Source: a virus
Virus record (IMG/VR): IMGVR_UViG_3300037502_000516
Span: 1 to 41,068 of that record
DNA length: 41,068 nt
Strand: one strand, 5' to 3'
A program made the translations under genes and the position numbers. Position 1 is the first letter of the stretch, and the number at the start of each line of letters is the position of its first letter. The notes under the pieces were generated by a model. The model was given only the letters and a program-made list of their open reading frames with translations. It searched no databases and was not told where the DNA came from. This document shows positions 18,670-41,068 of this stretch, piece by piece.

Positions 18670-20192
18670 GCGCCCATCCAGCCGGTTGCGCCTGCGGTGC
18701 GGTCGCTGTAGTGGCGACGGGGCATAGTTGCTCGGGGTTCGCGGGAGGCGACAGGAAATGCGAACGTCACCGCAATCGCATCGGCGGCGTCAGGAGAAGC
18801 TAAACCCCTGGCTTTCATATCCTTCTTGCTCTCCAAGAAGATCGTACCGCTTGAGTCGGGTTTGGTCTTTGGCCCGGTCAGATCTGCCTTCAGTTGCCTG
18901 TCTGGCGCGATAGACGCGGTTCTTAGCCAGTCCCGCAGCGCACCCCACAGCTCGGCGCGCTTGTTACCCCACATTACTTGGTTCTTGGCTTTCCAGCCAA
19001 AGTTCACCCCACGCACCTTATACCGCTGTTCGACCAGCCGGTCAAGTATGCCGTACCCTAGCCCACCCTCGTCGATCACCGTCAGCGTCGGTTTGTATTC
19101 CTCGATCGCGTCGATGACGTGCCCCACGGTCGTCATCGTATCATCCCCCCGGTACCGCTTAATTGCGATGATGTCACGCCCTTGACGCACCGCGATGACC
19201 GTCGAGTCGCCGCCCGACCTGGCTGGGTCGATGCCGATCACGATTGGCGCTGTCTCGTCTTTGTGCTTGGGCCGAGCAAACGCCTGATCGACCAGCGCGG
19301 GTCCGATGAACTGATCGTCGCCTGCGCTTGGAAATTCCCCGTACACCTCGACCTTGGCCTGTATCGAGTCTTCGCCGTACTCCGCAATGATCTGCTCGTA
19401 CACCTGTTTGTCGGTGTCCTCGACGTCGCGGGCGTCGATGTTCTCGGTCGACCAAAAGTCGCGCTTCGAGTTGAAGCATTCGAAGAAGTAGCCTTGGTTG
19501 CGGCGCGGATTGGAAAAGGCAAACCAGAACCTGTGCGGCGTGTTTTCTGTAAAAAAGCCGGCGGCCACTTGCCAGATCGAGTCTGGAATACCTGACGCCT
19601 CATCAAAGATCAAACACACGCCGTCCAGGTTGTGCAGACCGGCGTAAGCGTCCGGATTCTCTTCCGACCACAGACGCCCCTCGATGGACCAAAAGCGCGT
19701 GCCTTTCTTCAAGTCCCGCTCGACGATCTCCGCCAGCCACTTAGCCGGCGCAACCTTGGTTGCGCTAATCTCAAACCAATGGCTGTTGATCATCATTGCC
19801 AGCCACTTGGTGATCTCTGACCAAGTGATACTACGGAGCTGGGCCTCACTGTTGGCCGACACAATTGTTGTCGAGCCAATGCGCGTGGAGAGCATCCACA
19901 GCACGAGCCATGACACTAGCGCAGACTTACCGATCCCCCGGCCTGATGCGACCGCCAACCGGAAGACGTTATAGTCGACCCGCCCGCCGTTGTCTTTGAT
20001 GTGTTGCGTAATCTTCCGCAGCACCTGACGCTGCCACTTGCGCGGGCCTTTGTAGTTGGCCAGTGGCGTGCCGTGTTGCCCCCACGGAAACGCAAAGTTT
20101 ACAAACGCTTCCGGGTCGTCTTTGATGCGCGGCTGCCAGAGCCGCGTCATCAAAAGCATTTCATCAGAGGCGTTGTAGATCGGCTGCTGCAA
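18666..20192 (-). CDS. Terminase large subunit (packaging ATPase/nuclease)
   Basis: A 508-residue protein. The ATPase domain has the Walker A motif ASGRGIGKSALVSW (about 85-97) and Walker B VCLIFDEASGIPD (about 190-202). The nuclease domain has GIDPARSGGDSTVIAVRQG (first Asp), LTVIDEGGLGYG (second acidic) and SPDAADAIAVTFAF (third Asp), the RNase H-like trio. It cuts concatemeric DNA and pumps it into proheads through the portal. It overlaps the small subunit gene by 29 bases. The length is normal for the family. Confidence 0.95.
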   Translation of the reverse strand: MQQPIYNASDEMLLMTRLWQPRIKDDPEAFVNFAFPWGQHGTPLANYKGPRKWQRQVLRKITQHIKDNGGRVDYNVFRLAVASGRGIGKSALVSWLVLWMLSTRIGSTTIVSANSEAQLRSITWSEITKWLAMMINSHWFEISATKVAPAKWLAEIVERDLKKGTRFWSIEGRLWSEENPDAYAGLHNLDGVCLIFDEASGIPDSIWQVAAGFFTENTPHRFWFAFSNPRRNQGYFFECFNSKRDFWSTENIDARDVEDTDKQVYEQIIAEYGEDSIQAKVEVYGEFPSAGDDQFIGPALVDQAFARPKHKDETAPIVIGIDPARSGGDSTVIAVRQGRDIIAIKRYRGDDTMTTVGHVIDAIEEYKPTLTVIDEGGLGYGILDRLVEQRYKVRGVNFGWKAKNQVMWGNKRAELWGALRDWLRTASIAPDRQLKADLTGPKTKPDSSGTIFLESKKDMKARGLASPDAADAIAVTFAFPVASREPRATMPRRHYSDRTAGATGWMGA

Positions 20193-20604
20193 GTGTTGGC
20201 TCCAGTCGCTCTGTTACCTGCACGTCAATGACGCGCTGCTCTGCTTTCTCAAGCGCCGATATTACGCTGATCTGCTGCGCTACGTCGATCTGCACCTGTT
20301 GCTTAGCGACCCAATCGTGGCGATGGCGCAGGATTTCTAGCGCCGCTTTGGTGTCGCCGGAAAGCGCAGCGTCCATCATTACAGCCGCAAGCGCCCCTTC
20401 TGCGTCAGCGCGCCCCTTCTGTTCTGCCATCTCGGCGATCGGGTCCATCTCGCACAGACGCCGATACTCGGTCGGCAACATGCCGGCTTTCAACGCCAGC
20501 GAGTCACCCTTTAGACCCAACTTGGCAGCCTCGTAGATGCGCTGCAAGCGCGCCTCAGTCGCTTCTAGTTTGCGCGCGGTAAGCGGCAAGGATTGGAAGG
20601 TCAT
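20164..20604 (-). CDS. Terminase small subunit
   Basis: A 146-residue protein. Residues 1-70 (ARLQRIYEAAKLGLKGDSLALKAGMLPTEYRRLCEMDP) form a helix-turn-helix of the type that recognises the packaging site. A helical oligomerisation region follows (AALEILRHRHDWVAKQQVQI). The gene begins the late operon and overlaps the large subunit. AAGGA-type sequence is weak before ATG 20604, and TGCAA/TTGCA repeats lie upstream at 20620-20635. The family assignment rests on the HTH and on position. Confidence 0.8.
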   Translation of the reverse strand: MTFQSLPLTARKLEATEARLQRIYEAAKLGLKGDSLALKAGMLPTEYRRLCEMDPIAEMAEQKGRADAEGALAAVMMDAALSGDTKAALEILRHRHDWVAKQQVQIDVAQQISVISALEKAEQRVIDVQVTERLEPTLAAADLQRL

Positions 20605-20735
20605 GGCCAGATGATGTGCTGCAAATAGTGTTGCAAGTAATTATAGCACTTTGCAAAAAAATTTGTGCGACCCCTCCGTTTTTGACCGGCCCGGTCGCCG
20701 GCCCTCACCGGGGGCTCTCGCCGCGCGACCCCGAT

Positions 20736-20780
20736 CCGCCAGCCCGCCAGCCCGCCAGCCCGCCAGCCCGCCAGCCCGCC
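20736..20780. repeat. 8-bp tandem repeat (CCGCCAGC, about 5.6 copies)
   Basis: The unit CCGCCAGC repeats without error from 20736 to 20780. There are no spacers, so this is not a CRISPR. It could bind a replication or packaging protein, or be a simple slippage-generated repeat. Confidence 0.9.
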
Positions 20781-21044
20781 TCGCTGGGTGGCGTGGGGTA
20801 GCACCCCGTCAACCGATAGCCCGTCTGCCATGTGGGCGTCGTGGGGTAGCGCCCCACTAGTCGACAAGCGCGCACACCTGGGCGCGTGGCCATGCAAACG
20901 TGGGCAATGTGGGGCAGCCCAAAAGCAAAGCGCTCATGCGGTTTGCGTGGGGTACCCCATGCCGCCCGGCTGTCGGCGCGGGGCTGCGGGCGCGGGGCTG
21001 TGGGGTAGTTGGGGTAGCTGGGGCACCCCCCTAAAAAAAGTCCC

Positions 21045-21050
21045 TATAAT
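21045..21050 (+). promoter_or_regulatory. Consensus -10 element (TATAAT)
   Basis: TATAAT matches the sigma-70 -10 consensus exactly. No good -35 lies 16-18 bases upstream (the sequence there is G/C-rich), so the promoter may need an activator. Its predicted start point falls in the LexA box just downstream, which would allow repression. Confidence 0.45.
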
Positions 21051-21056
21051 TTACAC

Positions 21057-21076
21057 TACTGTATATATATACAGTA
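21057..21076. promoter_or_regulatory. Perfect consensus LexA (SOS) box
   Basis: The 20-bp sequence TACTGTATATATATACAGTA is a perfect palindrome and identical to the E. coli LexA consensus TACTG(TA)5CAGTA. It sits 7 bases after a TATAAT and is the only such site I see. In host LexA-regulated systems this site represses until DNA damage. It probably controls the plus-strand operon and perhaps minus-strand transcription of the late genes. Confidence 0.85.
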
Positions 21077-21094
21077 TAAACACAAAACATTTTT

Positions 21095-21107
21095 TAGGTA
21101 TTACCTA
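21095..21107. promoter_or_regulatory. Short inverted repeat TAGGTA-T-TACCTA
   Basis: A 13-base dyad 19 bases right of the LexA box. It may be a second operator. Evidence is symmetry and position only. Confidence 0.35.
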
Positions 21108-21266
21108 GTGCCCCACATTACCCCGCCATAGGGGCGCGCCTACATCCCGCGCCGCCCCATTCGCCAACCCATTTTCGCCCCACTCCACCCTGCAACACGT
21201 TGCGTCGCGCCCCGCCACAAGTTTTGCGTGGGGTAGCAGAAAATGAAATAAACTTTAGATCACGGC

Positions 21267-21296
21267 TTGACAATGCAACAAAACGTGTTGCACAAT
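21267..21296 (+). promoter_or_regulatory. Promoter with internal operator for the accessory operon
   Basis: TTGACA (21267-21272) matches the -35 consensus. CACAAT (21291-21296) is a fair -10 at 18-base spacing. The spacer holds a perfect dyad, TGCAACA-N5-TGTTGCA (21274-21292), so a bound protein would block RNA polymerase. Related TGCAA...TTGCA sequences lie at 20620-20635 and 21191-21203. Transcription would start near 21303, giving a leader of about 40 bases before the first gene. Confidence 0.6.
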
Positions 21297-21344: not shown

Positions 21345-21530
21345 ATGACCAAGCACCAAACCACTACCGTCAACACCGCGCTCGCGCGCCTACCCGCGCT
21401 CGGCGCCGACTATGCCGCGCGCGTGCTCTCCGCTTTGCACCGCTCCGCCATGCGCGCCGCGCAGCAACGCGAGATTGCCGCAATCGCCGCTGCGCACGGG
21501 CTGACCCGCTCGCCTAATTGGATTGTCTAA
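21345..21530 (+). CDS. Small hypothetical protein, first gene of accessory operon
   Basis: A 61-residue protein, MTKHQTTTVNTALARLPALGADYAARVLSALHRSAMRAAQQREIAA, ending SPNWIV. The start at 21345 is chosen because CAGGAG lies 9 bases upstream; the in-frame extension to 21267 would run through the promoter. It is Ala/Arg-rich and helical, soluble, with no known domain. The 15 bases GGAGCCGACACCATG at its start are repeated at the next gene. Function unknown. Confidence 0.6.
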   Translation: MTKHQTTTVNTALARLPALGADYAARVLSALHRSAMRAAQQREIAAIAAAHGLTRSPNWIV

Positions 21531-21579: not shown

Positions 21580-22245
21580 ATGCCCTATCAAGTTCATCTA
21601 TCGCCCAAATCCGCTAACGCGAAAACCGGTCCGATTCCTGTGTCAACCACGACGCGCGCAACCTGTCCGACGTCCTGCGCAATGCGCGACGCGTGCTATG
21701 CGTCGTCCGGTCCGCTCGCGCTTCATTGGTCCGCAGTGTCATCGGGCGCGCGTGGGACCGATTGGCAAACTTTCGTCGACGCGATCGCGCAACTGCCCGC
21801 CGGCCAATTGTGGCGCCACAATCAGGCGGGTGATTTACCGGGCGATGGCGCGACGGTCGATCCGGTCGCGCTCGGCGAACTTGTCGCAGCTAATCGCGGG
21901 CGTCGCGGGTTCACTTATTCTCATTACCGCGATGGCGCGTCGTTGTCTTGGATCCGCCACGCCAATGAATGGGGTTTCACGGTCAACCTGTCCGCTAACG
22001 ATCTCGCCGACGCGGATATCCTCGCCGACGCCGACGCCGGTCCGGTAGTGTGCGTGCTACCGTCGACCACGACCGAAAACACTCGCACGCCCGCTGGGCG
22101 TCGCGTCGTCGTCTGCCCTGCTACTCAGCGCGGCGACGTTAGCTGCGCGACGTGTCAACTATGCGCCCGCCAGCGCGACGTGATCGTCGGTTTCCCGGCG
22201 CATGGTTCGCGTAAACGTGTGATCGACATCAAACTCGGAGCGTAA
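21580..22245 (+). CDS. Cys-rich protein of unknown function (DUF7227-like)
   Basis: A 221-residue protein starting MPYQVHLSPKSANAKTGPIP. C29, C33 and C39 lie in ATCPTSCAMRDACYASSGPLA. C179, C189, C192 and C195 lie in VCPATQRGDVSCATCQLC. Between them are LWRHNQAGDLPGDG, GFTYSHYRD and FTVNLSANDLADAD, which look like strands of a TIM barrel. I recall this as DUF7227 and note a similarity to phage Gp37/Gp68 (DUF5131) Fe-S proteins with a ...GCxxCYA motif. A metal-cluster protein is likely, but the reaction is unknown. Start chosen at ATG 21580, preceded by TGGAG; an in-frame extension to 21523 overlaps the previous gene. Confidence 0.7.
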   Translation: MPYQVHLSPKSANAKTGPIPVSTTTRATCPTSCAMRDACYASSGPLALHWSAVSSGARGTDWQTFVDAIAQLPAGQLWRHNQAGDLPGDGATVDPVALGELVAANRGRRGFTYSHYRDGASLSWIRHANEWGFTVNLSANDLADADILADADAGPVVCVLPSTTTENTRTPAGRRVVVCPATQRGDVSCATCQLCARQRDVIVGFPAHGSRKRVIDIKLGA

Positions 22246-33327: not shown

Positions 33328-33500
33328 TTGATTACAGCGAAGGCTATCTGAACTTAAAGCGCATGGTGGAAGAGCTATGGCGCGCCACAAACGAACACGA
33401 CTTCATGCGTGCTCGTGAGCTATGTTCAGACATCACGGTCGAGGCGCGGATGCTCCGCAATCAACTGGTAATTCAAGATGACGCTCACCGAGAAAGTTGA
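33324..33500 (+). CDS. Small hypothetical protein (58 aa)
   Basis: MIDYSEGYLNLKRMVEELWRATNEHDFMRARELCSDITVEARMLRNQLVIQD. ATG 33324 overlaps the previous stop, and AGGTAGG lies just upstream. Helical; this YxxLKxxVxxLxxAxxxxDFxxAxxLAxDLxxEARML pattern is common in phages. Function unknown. Confidence 0.65.
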   Translation: MIDYSEGYLNLKRMVEELWRATNEHDFMRARELCSDITVEARMLRNQLVIQDDAHRES

Positions 33501-33750
33501 GCGTTATCTACGCACGCACAAAGCGCCTGTCACCATCCAGGCGCTTGCTGAGCGGTTTATGATGTCCCCAAGTGGAGTACGCAATGCCCTCTTCAGACTT
33601 GAGAAAATCAACGTCGCCCAATACGTCACCGTCAGCGGGCAACAGCTCTGGTCCATCGTCCGACACCCGCCCGCAGTGGCCGTTTCCGACACACCTGATC
33701 CGCCCAAGCGGCCCACTTCCTACCCCCACGCTCGAGGATATGATGACTGA
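33478..33750 (+). CDS. Winged helix-turn-helix DNA-binding protein
   Basis: A 90-residue protein. MTLTEKVERYLRTHKAPVTIQALAERFMMSPSGVRNALFRLEK (residues 1-43) is a winged helix with recognition helix PSGVRNALFRL, followed by a beta wing VAQYVTVSGQQLWSIV. The C-terminus is Pro-rich. It overlaps the previous gene by 23 bases. It is the only clear small transcriptional-regulator-like protein in the window and so the best local candidate to bind the palindromes at 30107 or 21274, which is inference. Confidence 0.65.
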   Translation: MTLTEKVERYLRTHKAPVTIQALAERFMMSPSGVRNALFRLEKINVAQYVTVSGQQLWSIVRHPPAVAVSDTPDPPKRPTSYPHARGYDD

Positions 33751-39915: not shown

Positions 39916-40905
39916 TTAGAGCATACCTTGGCCGTAGCGGCCTGCGTAGTCATACATTGTTGCCGGACGGTTGGCAAGCATGTTCAGCATGCGGTCTTGC
40001 ATGTACAGATTGGTGCCAGAGCCAATTGCGCCCGACAGCGCGTTCGCCATGCCCATCGTGCCGGAGGCTTGTGCCGCTCCGATCTGTCCAGCGGCGTTTG
40101 CTTGGGCAGCGCCAAGATTTCCCATCTGACCCGCGATGTTTGATGCAAGCCCTTGGCCGGCTTGTGCGGTCTGCATCAGCGGCAACATACGCGCGGTGCG
40201 CTCACCAGCAAACTGACCGTACTCCATAGCGCCAAGCCCTTGACGCCGGGCTAGTTCGTTTGCAAACCGACCGTATTCGGTGTTACCAAGCGCCGCGCGG
40301 CGCGACAGATCATCAGCAAACTGACTGTACTCTTGCCCTGCCAACGCCGCTCTTGCAGCGCGGTCTGCTTGGAACCGCGCAAAAGCGTTTTGGTATTCTT
40401 GTGACGCGAGCCCTTGGCCGTATCGCTGAAGCGCTTTGCCGGTGCCGCCCGACAACAGATTGCCGCGTGCCGCTGCGCTTTGCTCAAGCGCCTTCATGCC
40501 TTCGGCCAAACGGAATGCGTAGCCAGGGTCCGCTTCAAAATTAAACTGTTCAGACGCCAACTGACCCGGCGTGACGCCGGTGTATTGCATCCGCGAAATC
40601 TCTGCTGGTGACAGCCCCGCAGTAGGTTGGTACTGCTGAGCGGCTAGCTCAGCGGCTGACAACCCGGCGGAAGGGCGATAAGTTTGCGGGTTGCGCAGCT
40701 CTTGCAAGAGCATGTTTTGCGCTTCGATCCCAGCTTCTCGAAACGGTGCTTGCGTCTCAAGTTGGCGCTCAAACATGCGCTCTTGCGCTTCCATGCCTTC
40801 ACGGGCCGCAGCGGCTTGAGTGCTGGCTGCACTGCGCGACGCACTAGCGCCAAGCAAACCGCTGGCAATCGAGCCCCCGGCAATTGCGGTTATTGGATCA
40901 GGCAT
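39916..40905 (-). CDS. DNA transfer / ejection protein, copy 2
   Basis: A 329-residue protein from ATG 40905 (MPDPITAIAGGSIASGLLGAS...), preceded by AGGAG. It shares with the gene at 862-2301 the block DPGYAFRLAEGMKALE, GNLLSGGTGKALQRYGQ and QEYQNAFARFQ. It lacks the long Ala-rich N-terminus and instead has internal repeats: three units of about 17 residues (EYSQFADDLSRR, EYGRFANELARR, EYGQFAGERTAR) after the block, and short GLSxAELxxQQY-type repeats before it. It should be a capsid-internal protein ejected with the genome. Confidence 0.75.
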   Translation of the reverse strand: MPDPITAIAGGSIASGLLGASASRSAASTQAAAAREGMEAQERMFERQLETQAPFREAGIEAQNMLLQELRNPQTYRPSAGLSAAELAAQQYQPTAGLSPAEISRMQYTGVTPGQLASEQFNFEADPGYAFRLAEGMKALEQSAAARGNLLSGGTGKALQRYGQGLASQEYQNAFARFQADRAARAALAGQEYSQFADDLSRRAALGNTEYGRFANELARRQGLGAMEYGQFAGERTARMLPLMQTAQAGQGLASNIAGQMGNLGAAQANAAGQIGAAQASGTMGMANALSGAIGSGTNLYMQDRMLNMLANRPATMYDYAGRYGQGML

Positions 40906-41068
40906 TTGGGAACTCCTGGCGGTACGCCTCAAAAGTTTCGCCGTAAAGCGACAAGATGTCTCGCGCAGCGGTCATAGCAACGTCAGCCCCGTGGCAAATA
41001 CGGACAACTTCCAGCACAACGTCATAGTAGCCTGCTCGCCATACAAACGACCGCTCATCAGCCTTGCG
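40898..41068 (-). CDS. C-terminal end of an unidentified protein (start outside the window)
   Basis: The last 56 residues before TGA at 40898 read RKADERSFVWRAGYYDVVLE, then VVRICHGADVAMTAARDILSLYGETFEAYRQEFPNA. The frame is open to the window edge. It looks helical and soluble. The stop overlaps the start region of the next gene by 8 bases. Position before copy 2 of the ejection pair suggests a virion or assembly protein. No family is recognised. Confidence 0.5.
   Translation of the reverse strand, partial: RKADERSFVWRAGYYDVVLEVVRICHGADVAMTAARDILSLYGETFEAYRQEFPNA

Follow-up and report, generated by a model that had tools for sequence, protein, structure and literature searches.

A palindrome identical to the LexA consensus, in a phage that otherwise looks lytic, raises the question of whether the SOS repressor of the host takes part in controlling such a phage. 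The window, by which we mean the whole stretch of 41,068 nucleotides analysed here, is an entire IMG/VR virus record and is the genome of a P22-like podophage. Its leftward genes code for TerL, the portal, the major head protein, and head closure, tail and ejection proteins; the remaining genes code mostly for a primase, a DNA polymerase, an exonuclease, a methyltransferase, a helicase and an endolysin. The ORFs scanned included no integrase and no repressor of the CI-like or S24 type, although very diverged ones could escape such a scan. This bears out an earlier note, made from the sequence, which saw neither an integrase nor a CI-like repressor, and supports the lytic look that it gave the phage. 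The same note had suggested that lysogeny genes might lie in a missing gap. The window, however, contains no N bases and has the gene order of a 38.6-kb relative (G001) round the circle, except for the fast-changing ejection and tail genes, so that hidden lysogeny genes are unsupported. The ends of the window each carry a gene of the DNA-ejection family phrog_598 (862-2301 and 39916-40932), and the two would adjoin if the genome were circular. The window has no tRNA that could serve as a host clue, and a DNA search of annotated phages with the box region gave no match.

The palindrome lies in a 740-bp divergent gap between a leftward TerS-like gene and small rightward genes. At the place matching the TerS-like gene, the annotated genome DSL-LC05 has an annotated terminase small subunit. 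The features of the region are:

20164-20604, minus strand: TerS-like gene, first of the leftward structural operon; it precedes TerL, and homologues occupy the same place in relatives
20640-20648, minus strand: TGCTATAAT, an extended -10 and likely TerS-proximal promoter independent of the box; also in the box-less relative L005
20783-21238, no strand: repeat array with 7 TGGGGTA copies (12 in the whole window)
21000-21016, plus strand: phage-specific repeat pair GTGGGGTAGTTGGGGTA, left of the box
21045-21050, plus strand: TATAAT, by reading a possible -10 of a rightward promoter with its start inside the box
21057-21076, no strand: LexA-type operator (SOS box), a perfect 20-bp palindrome; exact match, kept in TerL-selected relatives
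21073-21078, minus strand: TATACT, which overlaps the edge of the box and by reading could be the -10 of a promoter directed leftward, towards TerS
21109-21124, minus strand: TGCCCCACATTACCCC, inverted counterpart of the left repeat pair, right of the box
21267-21296, plus strand: promoter-like TTGACA-18-CACAAT before the small rightward ORF (sigma-70 scan)
21345-21530, plus strand: 61-aa ORF, first rightward gene
21580-22245, plus strand: DUF7227 protein, after the 61-aa ORF

The 61-aa ORF is present at 7 of the 34 loci with a box and at 12 of the 119 without one, and its link to the box is weak.

Positions 21057-21076 read exactly TACTGTATATATATACAGTA, which has the CTGT-N8-ACAG core of a LexA box in the preferred TACTGT...ACAGTA form and confirms the perfect consensus box described before; the TATAAT mentioned with it was also found, six bases ahead of the box. 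When all 41,068 bases were scanned, this was the sole match at three mismatches or fewer, and none of 100 shuffled sequences had such a match. To follow its conservation in related phages, as had been proposed, relatives were gathered via TerL only, so that the sample is unbiased towards the box. The 188 loci with enough upstream sequence formed 106 clusters, grouped by similarity of the TerL-upstream region. CTGT-N8-ACAG occurs in 20 of the 106 clusters (about 80% are without a box), a count of limited weight, since half-sites rich in GC or in A score equal or higher in these upstream regions. The valid test for selection is the six-base half-site with a permutation control: TACTGT-N8-ACAGTA was found in 15 clusters, whereas any other permutation of the six half-site letters (n = 119) was found in at most one. 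The shuffles and this permutation control, together with the lack of any copy in IMG/VR of a scrambled palindrome of the same composition, rule out a chance origin of the box, as the earlier note had judged from the length of the match.

Most of the sites lie about 740-1150 bp upstream of TerL. A box-centred alignment showed high information in TACTGTAT and TACAGTA and lower information in the centre, where variants such as ATATCCGT, ATAGGCGT and ATAGAATT occur; outside the boxes information was low (mean 0.29 bits). The search for this alignment demanded the eight core letters and left the outer TA/TA and the adjoining AT/T free, and these were also conserved. Thus, half-sites persist while the flanks and centre of the box drift among relatives. 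Judged by this pattern of conservation, the box is a selected site with LexA-type specificity.

The box is not found in all close relatives. L005, with a TerL 99% identical to that of the window and a near-identical TerS, has no box, and its gap repeats are of the GGGTCA type. This suggests that the gap acts as a control unit that can be exchanged, with the box an optional part, and it argues against a TerS-binding role of the box. The closest annotated genomes, DSL-LC05 and isolate ctNMl277, also have no CTGT-N8-ACAG site. Four other box-less loci (L021, L026, L064 and L067) share a different conserved palindrome, TATGTTATAACRTA, upstream of TerS, perhaps the site of another regulator. Both ends of contig IMGVR_UViG_3300043449_001264 (L004 and L137) fall in the box region in non-identical versions, so strain variation in the gap seems to break assemblies.

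In IMG/VR, the exact 20-mer occurs in 79 stretches on 78 contigs. In 51 of these contigs it lies upstream of the TerS of this phage group (36-100% identical), and because many of them are near-identical strains the 51 are not independent cases. At five loci (L089, L093, L094, L139 and L142) the exact box lies upstream of a TerS only 36-48% identical, and the fetched stretches have no TerL match; the box-TerS neighbourhood may reach past the TerL lineage of the window. On several of the remaining contigs the box adjoins an S24/umuD-like peptidase, UmuC or SRAP gene. These are classical SOS genes.

TerL relatives in genome assemblies came mostly from Burkholderiales or other beta-proteobacterial metagenome bins, with some from Methylococcaceae and a few from implausible bins. 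The likely host order, guessed from these bins, is the Burkholderiales. We collected 34 lexA genes, 5 from Burkholderiales-type bins and 29 from the family of one such bin, and upstream of 33 of them lies a site that agrees with the core at 7 or all 8 of its bases, usually in the form CTG[GT]-N8-ACAG. The LexA motif of most beta- and gamma-proteobacteria is CTGT-N8-ACAG (PMC3323433), and the sites upstream of these lexA genes agree with it. A host LexA motif of a different type had been named as a possible refutation; the likely order has the matching type. The exact 20-mer did not occur in any of 60 genomes from the likely host family, which suggests that the phage site is nearer to consensus and stronger than typical host sites. 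A DNA search of 399 Burkholderiales genomes found phage fragments in assemblies and no convincing prophage, and the same genomes held no clear CRISPR-spacer match to the phage. In one 4.2-Mb single-contig Burkholderiales genome (G226 contig 1, L245-L248), scattered and out-of-order pieces of this phage type look like an assembly artefact or degraded insertions.

Repeats of 7-8 bp are concentrated around the box (20700-21240) and in the TerS-upstream regions of G001, G002, G004, G007 and G009; they resemble an origin or an operator array with quickly changing specificity. Where a relative has a clear array, it occupies the place matching that of the window and is built from a repeat sequence particular to that relative: ATGGGTCA-type in G002 and G004, GTGGGCA in G007 and ATTGCCA-type in G009. 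Pairs of repeats about one helical turn apart point in opposite directions to the left and to the right of the box, as with GGGGTAGTGTGGGGTA / TACCCCAACTACCCC in L004 and CGGGGCGAACGGGGCGGT / ACCGCCCCGTTCGCCCCG in L062. In 11 of 13 representatives, 23-37 bp separate the box from the inner edge of the repeat pair on its TerS-distal side; on the TerS side the spacing is looser. Complementarity of the flanks exceeded that of shuffled sequences (p up to 0.05) in 9 of the 13; for the window itself p was about 0.13. A candidate reader of the gap repeats is a winged-helix protein of 90 aa (33478-33750), which shows 30-40% identity among relatives, whereas its neighbouring genes are mostly far more similar. 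This protein could not be tied to the repeat type, since G001 has the repeats of the window and yet a protein only 40% identical. Similar TGC(A/T)...GTGTTGCA repeats were also seen at 20617-20635, adjoining the TerS start, and at 21274-21292, inside the promoter-like site of the rightward ORF; possibly they are a shared operator of both gene blocks.

The sigma-70 scan called only the site at 21267-21296, about 190 bp to the right of the box. It did not call the TATAAT at 21045-21050, and no canonical -35 was found for a promoter at the box. The TATACT at 21073-21078 has a counterpart in only some relatives.

We interpret the palindrome as a predicted operator of the host LexA, in a promoter or control region, that hinders transcription from the centre of the gap until LexA is cleaved under the action of RecA, and we put the probability of this reading at about 0.68. 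In an undamaged host, a LexA dimer would occupy the palindrome and hinder transcripts that begin near the middle of the divergent gap; the site would become free when RecA drives the cleavage of LexA. The box may overlap one or two activator-dependent promoters, with the gap repeats serving as activator sites upstream of the -35 region and the box covering -10/+1. Part of the lytic programme would thereby depend on DNA damage in the host. Support comes from the exact consensus at a single site in the window, from its recurrence in 15 of 106 clusters with half-sites kept and centre and flanks free, from the copies beside SOS genes outside the phage group, from the matching sites upstream of 33 of the 34 lexA genes, and from the inverted repeat pairs that flank the box. 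The reading is weakened by the box-less clusters and L005, by the distance of the promoter-like sites and the lack of a canonical -35, by a host guessed from bins, and by the absence of the exact 20-mer from the 60 genomes of the likely family. Of the SOS control of a lytic-looking phage that the earlier note had proposed, the selected LexA-type site, its retention in relatives and the motif type of the likely host stand, and the hidden lysogeny genes find no support. Phages without visible lysogeny genes thus probably let the damage alarm of the host control part of their gene expression.

An unlikely alternative is that a regulator encoded by the phage itself, for instance the winged-helix protein at 33478-33750, has the palindrome as its operator, its motif happening to coincide with that of LexA. 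The phage and some of its relatives do encode this small, fast-diverging protein, and the phage box is nearer to consensus than the host sites are. Every feature of the independently known LexA consensus is matched, however, with the tolerated changes falling at its free positions, and in G001 and G004, both of which carry the box, the winged-helix protein has diverged (30-40% identity) while the box stays constant. It is more doubtful still that the box acts in packaging, as a pac site to which TerS binds, or in structure, for example at the tip of a cruciform or hairpin within an origin-like repeat array. The inverted repeats around the box can fold, and the box keeps its place upstream of TerS down to a TerS identity of 36-48%; a pac site, however, should be present wherever TerS is the same, and L005 lacks the box, which disfavours this role. 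An RNA or cruciform hairpin as the selected object is likewise disfavoured, since the letters of the arms are conserved rather than pairing alone, central changes break the pairing and the fold z-score is only -2.1. An Rfam search found nothing.

We give little credence to a decoy function, in which the many replicated phage copies would draw LexA away and so induce the repair genes of the host, with phage transcription unaffected. A site near consensus strength, at one copy per genome in most genomes checked, would suit a decoy, but neither its fixed place in the control gap nor its regular arrangement with the flanking repeats would be needed. That the box is a relic or a chance sequence with no present function is hardly credible: its presence is patchy among close relatives, yet both half-sites are kept beside flanks that cannot be aligned, and the permuted letters reached at most one cluster.

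The box is best read as a known kind of site in an unexpected place. The open-licence literature searched described no large, apparently non-integrating group of freshwater podophages with a LexA operator conserved in its terminase-side control region. About two thirds of the IMG/VR contigs that contain the perfect 20-bp consensus come from the group of the window. That an operator of consensus strength is retained across wide divergence, in phages with no visible lysogeny genes, suggests a response of lytic-looking freshwater phages to DNA damage in their hosts, in which case UV or antibiotic stress could shift the timing of their lysis. More tentatively, and with the odds against it, host LexA may be the main brake on early or late transcription from the terminase-side control region throughout a broad freshwater clade of apparently non-integrating P22-like podophages, opposing a phage activator on the flanking repeats and released by host DNA damage.

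The phages known to use LexA are mainly temperate, among them GIL01, 186, Gifsy and CTXphi (PMC3121763, PMC6182141). In the betatectivirus GIL01, promoters P1 and P3 are under host LexA, and P3, a late promoter, has LexA boxes within it and the activator gp6 centred at -43.5 (PMC6182141); the arrangement proposed here for the box and its repeats is the same. The window resembles GIL01 in having a LexA box in a phage control region and, among the ORFs scanned, no dedicated phage repressor or integrase. In GIL01 the activator site lies just upstream, near -35, beside the LexA boxes, whereas an activator for the window is only suggested by the repeats. GIL01 is also a temperate Bacillus tectivirus with Bacillus-type LexA boxes and the helpers gp7 and gp6 (PMC6182141), whereas the window is a tailed P22-like podophage with a single box, a presumed proteobacterial host, and tailed-phage TerL, portal and head genes in place of those of a tectivirus. 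LexA-controlled antirepressor operons are known in the Gifsy prophages, with coliphage 186 cited alongside (PMC3121763). There too a host LexA box in a phage genome couples phage genes to SOS, but these are integrating prophages with a separate repressor (PMC3121763), neither counterpart of which was found in the window, and the box of the window lies beside the terminase genes. Of the annotated genomes, the closest are DSL-LC05 (OR003940) and ctNMl277 (MW202483), with TerL 68-69% identical, P22-like structural genes and the same divergent layout; DSL-LC05 is predicted to be virulent. Phages thought virulent use other host master regulators, CtrA and Spo0A (PMC9437464). In phages of Alphaproteobacteria, many of them thought virulent, CtrA sites are conserved in promoter regions, as the LexA site is here, and have been discussed as "lytic deferment" (PMC9437464). 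CtrA is a cell-cycle regulator with several sites and experimentally shown binding (PMC9437464), whereas the window has one predicted site for LexA, a very well understood repressor with which lytic deferment could become testable.
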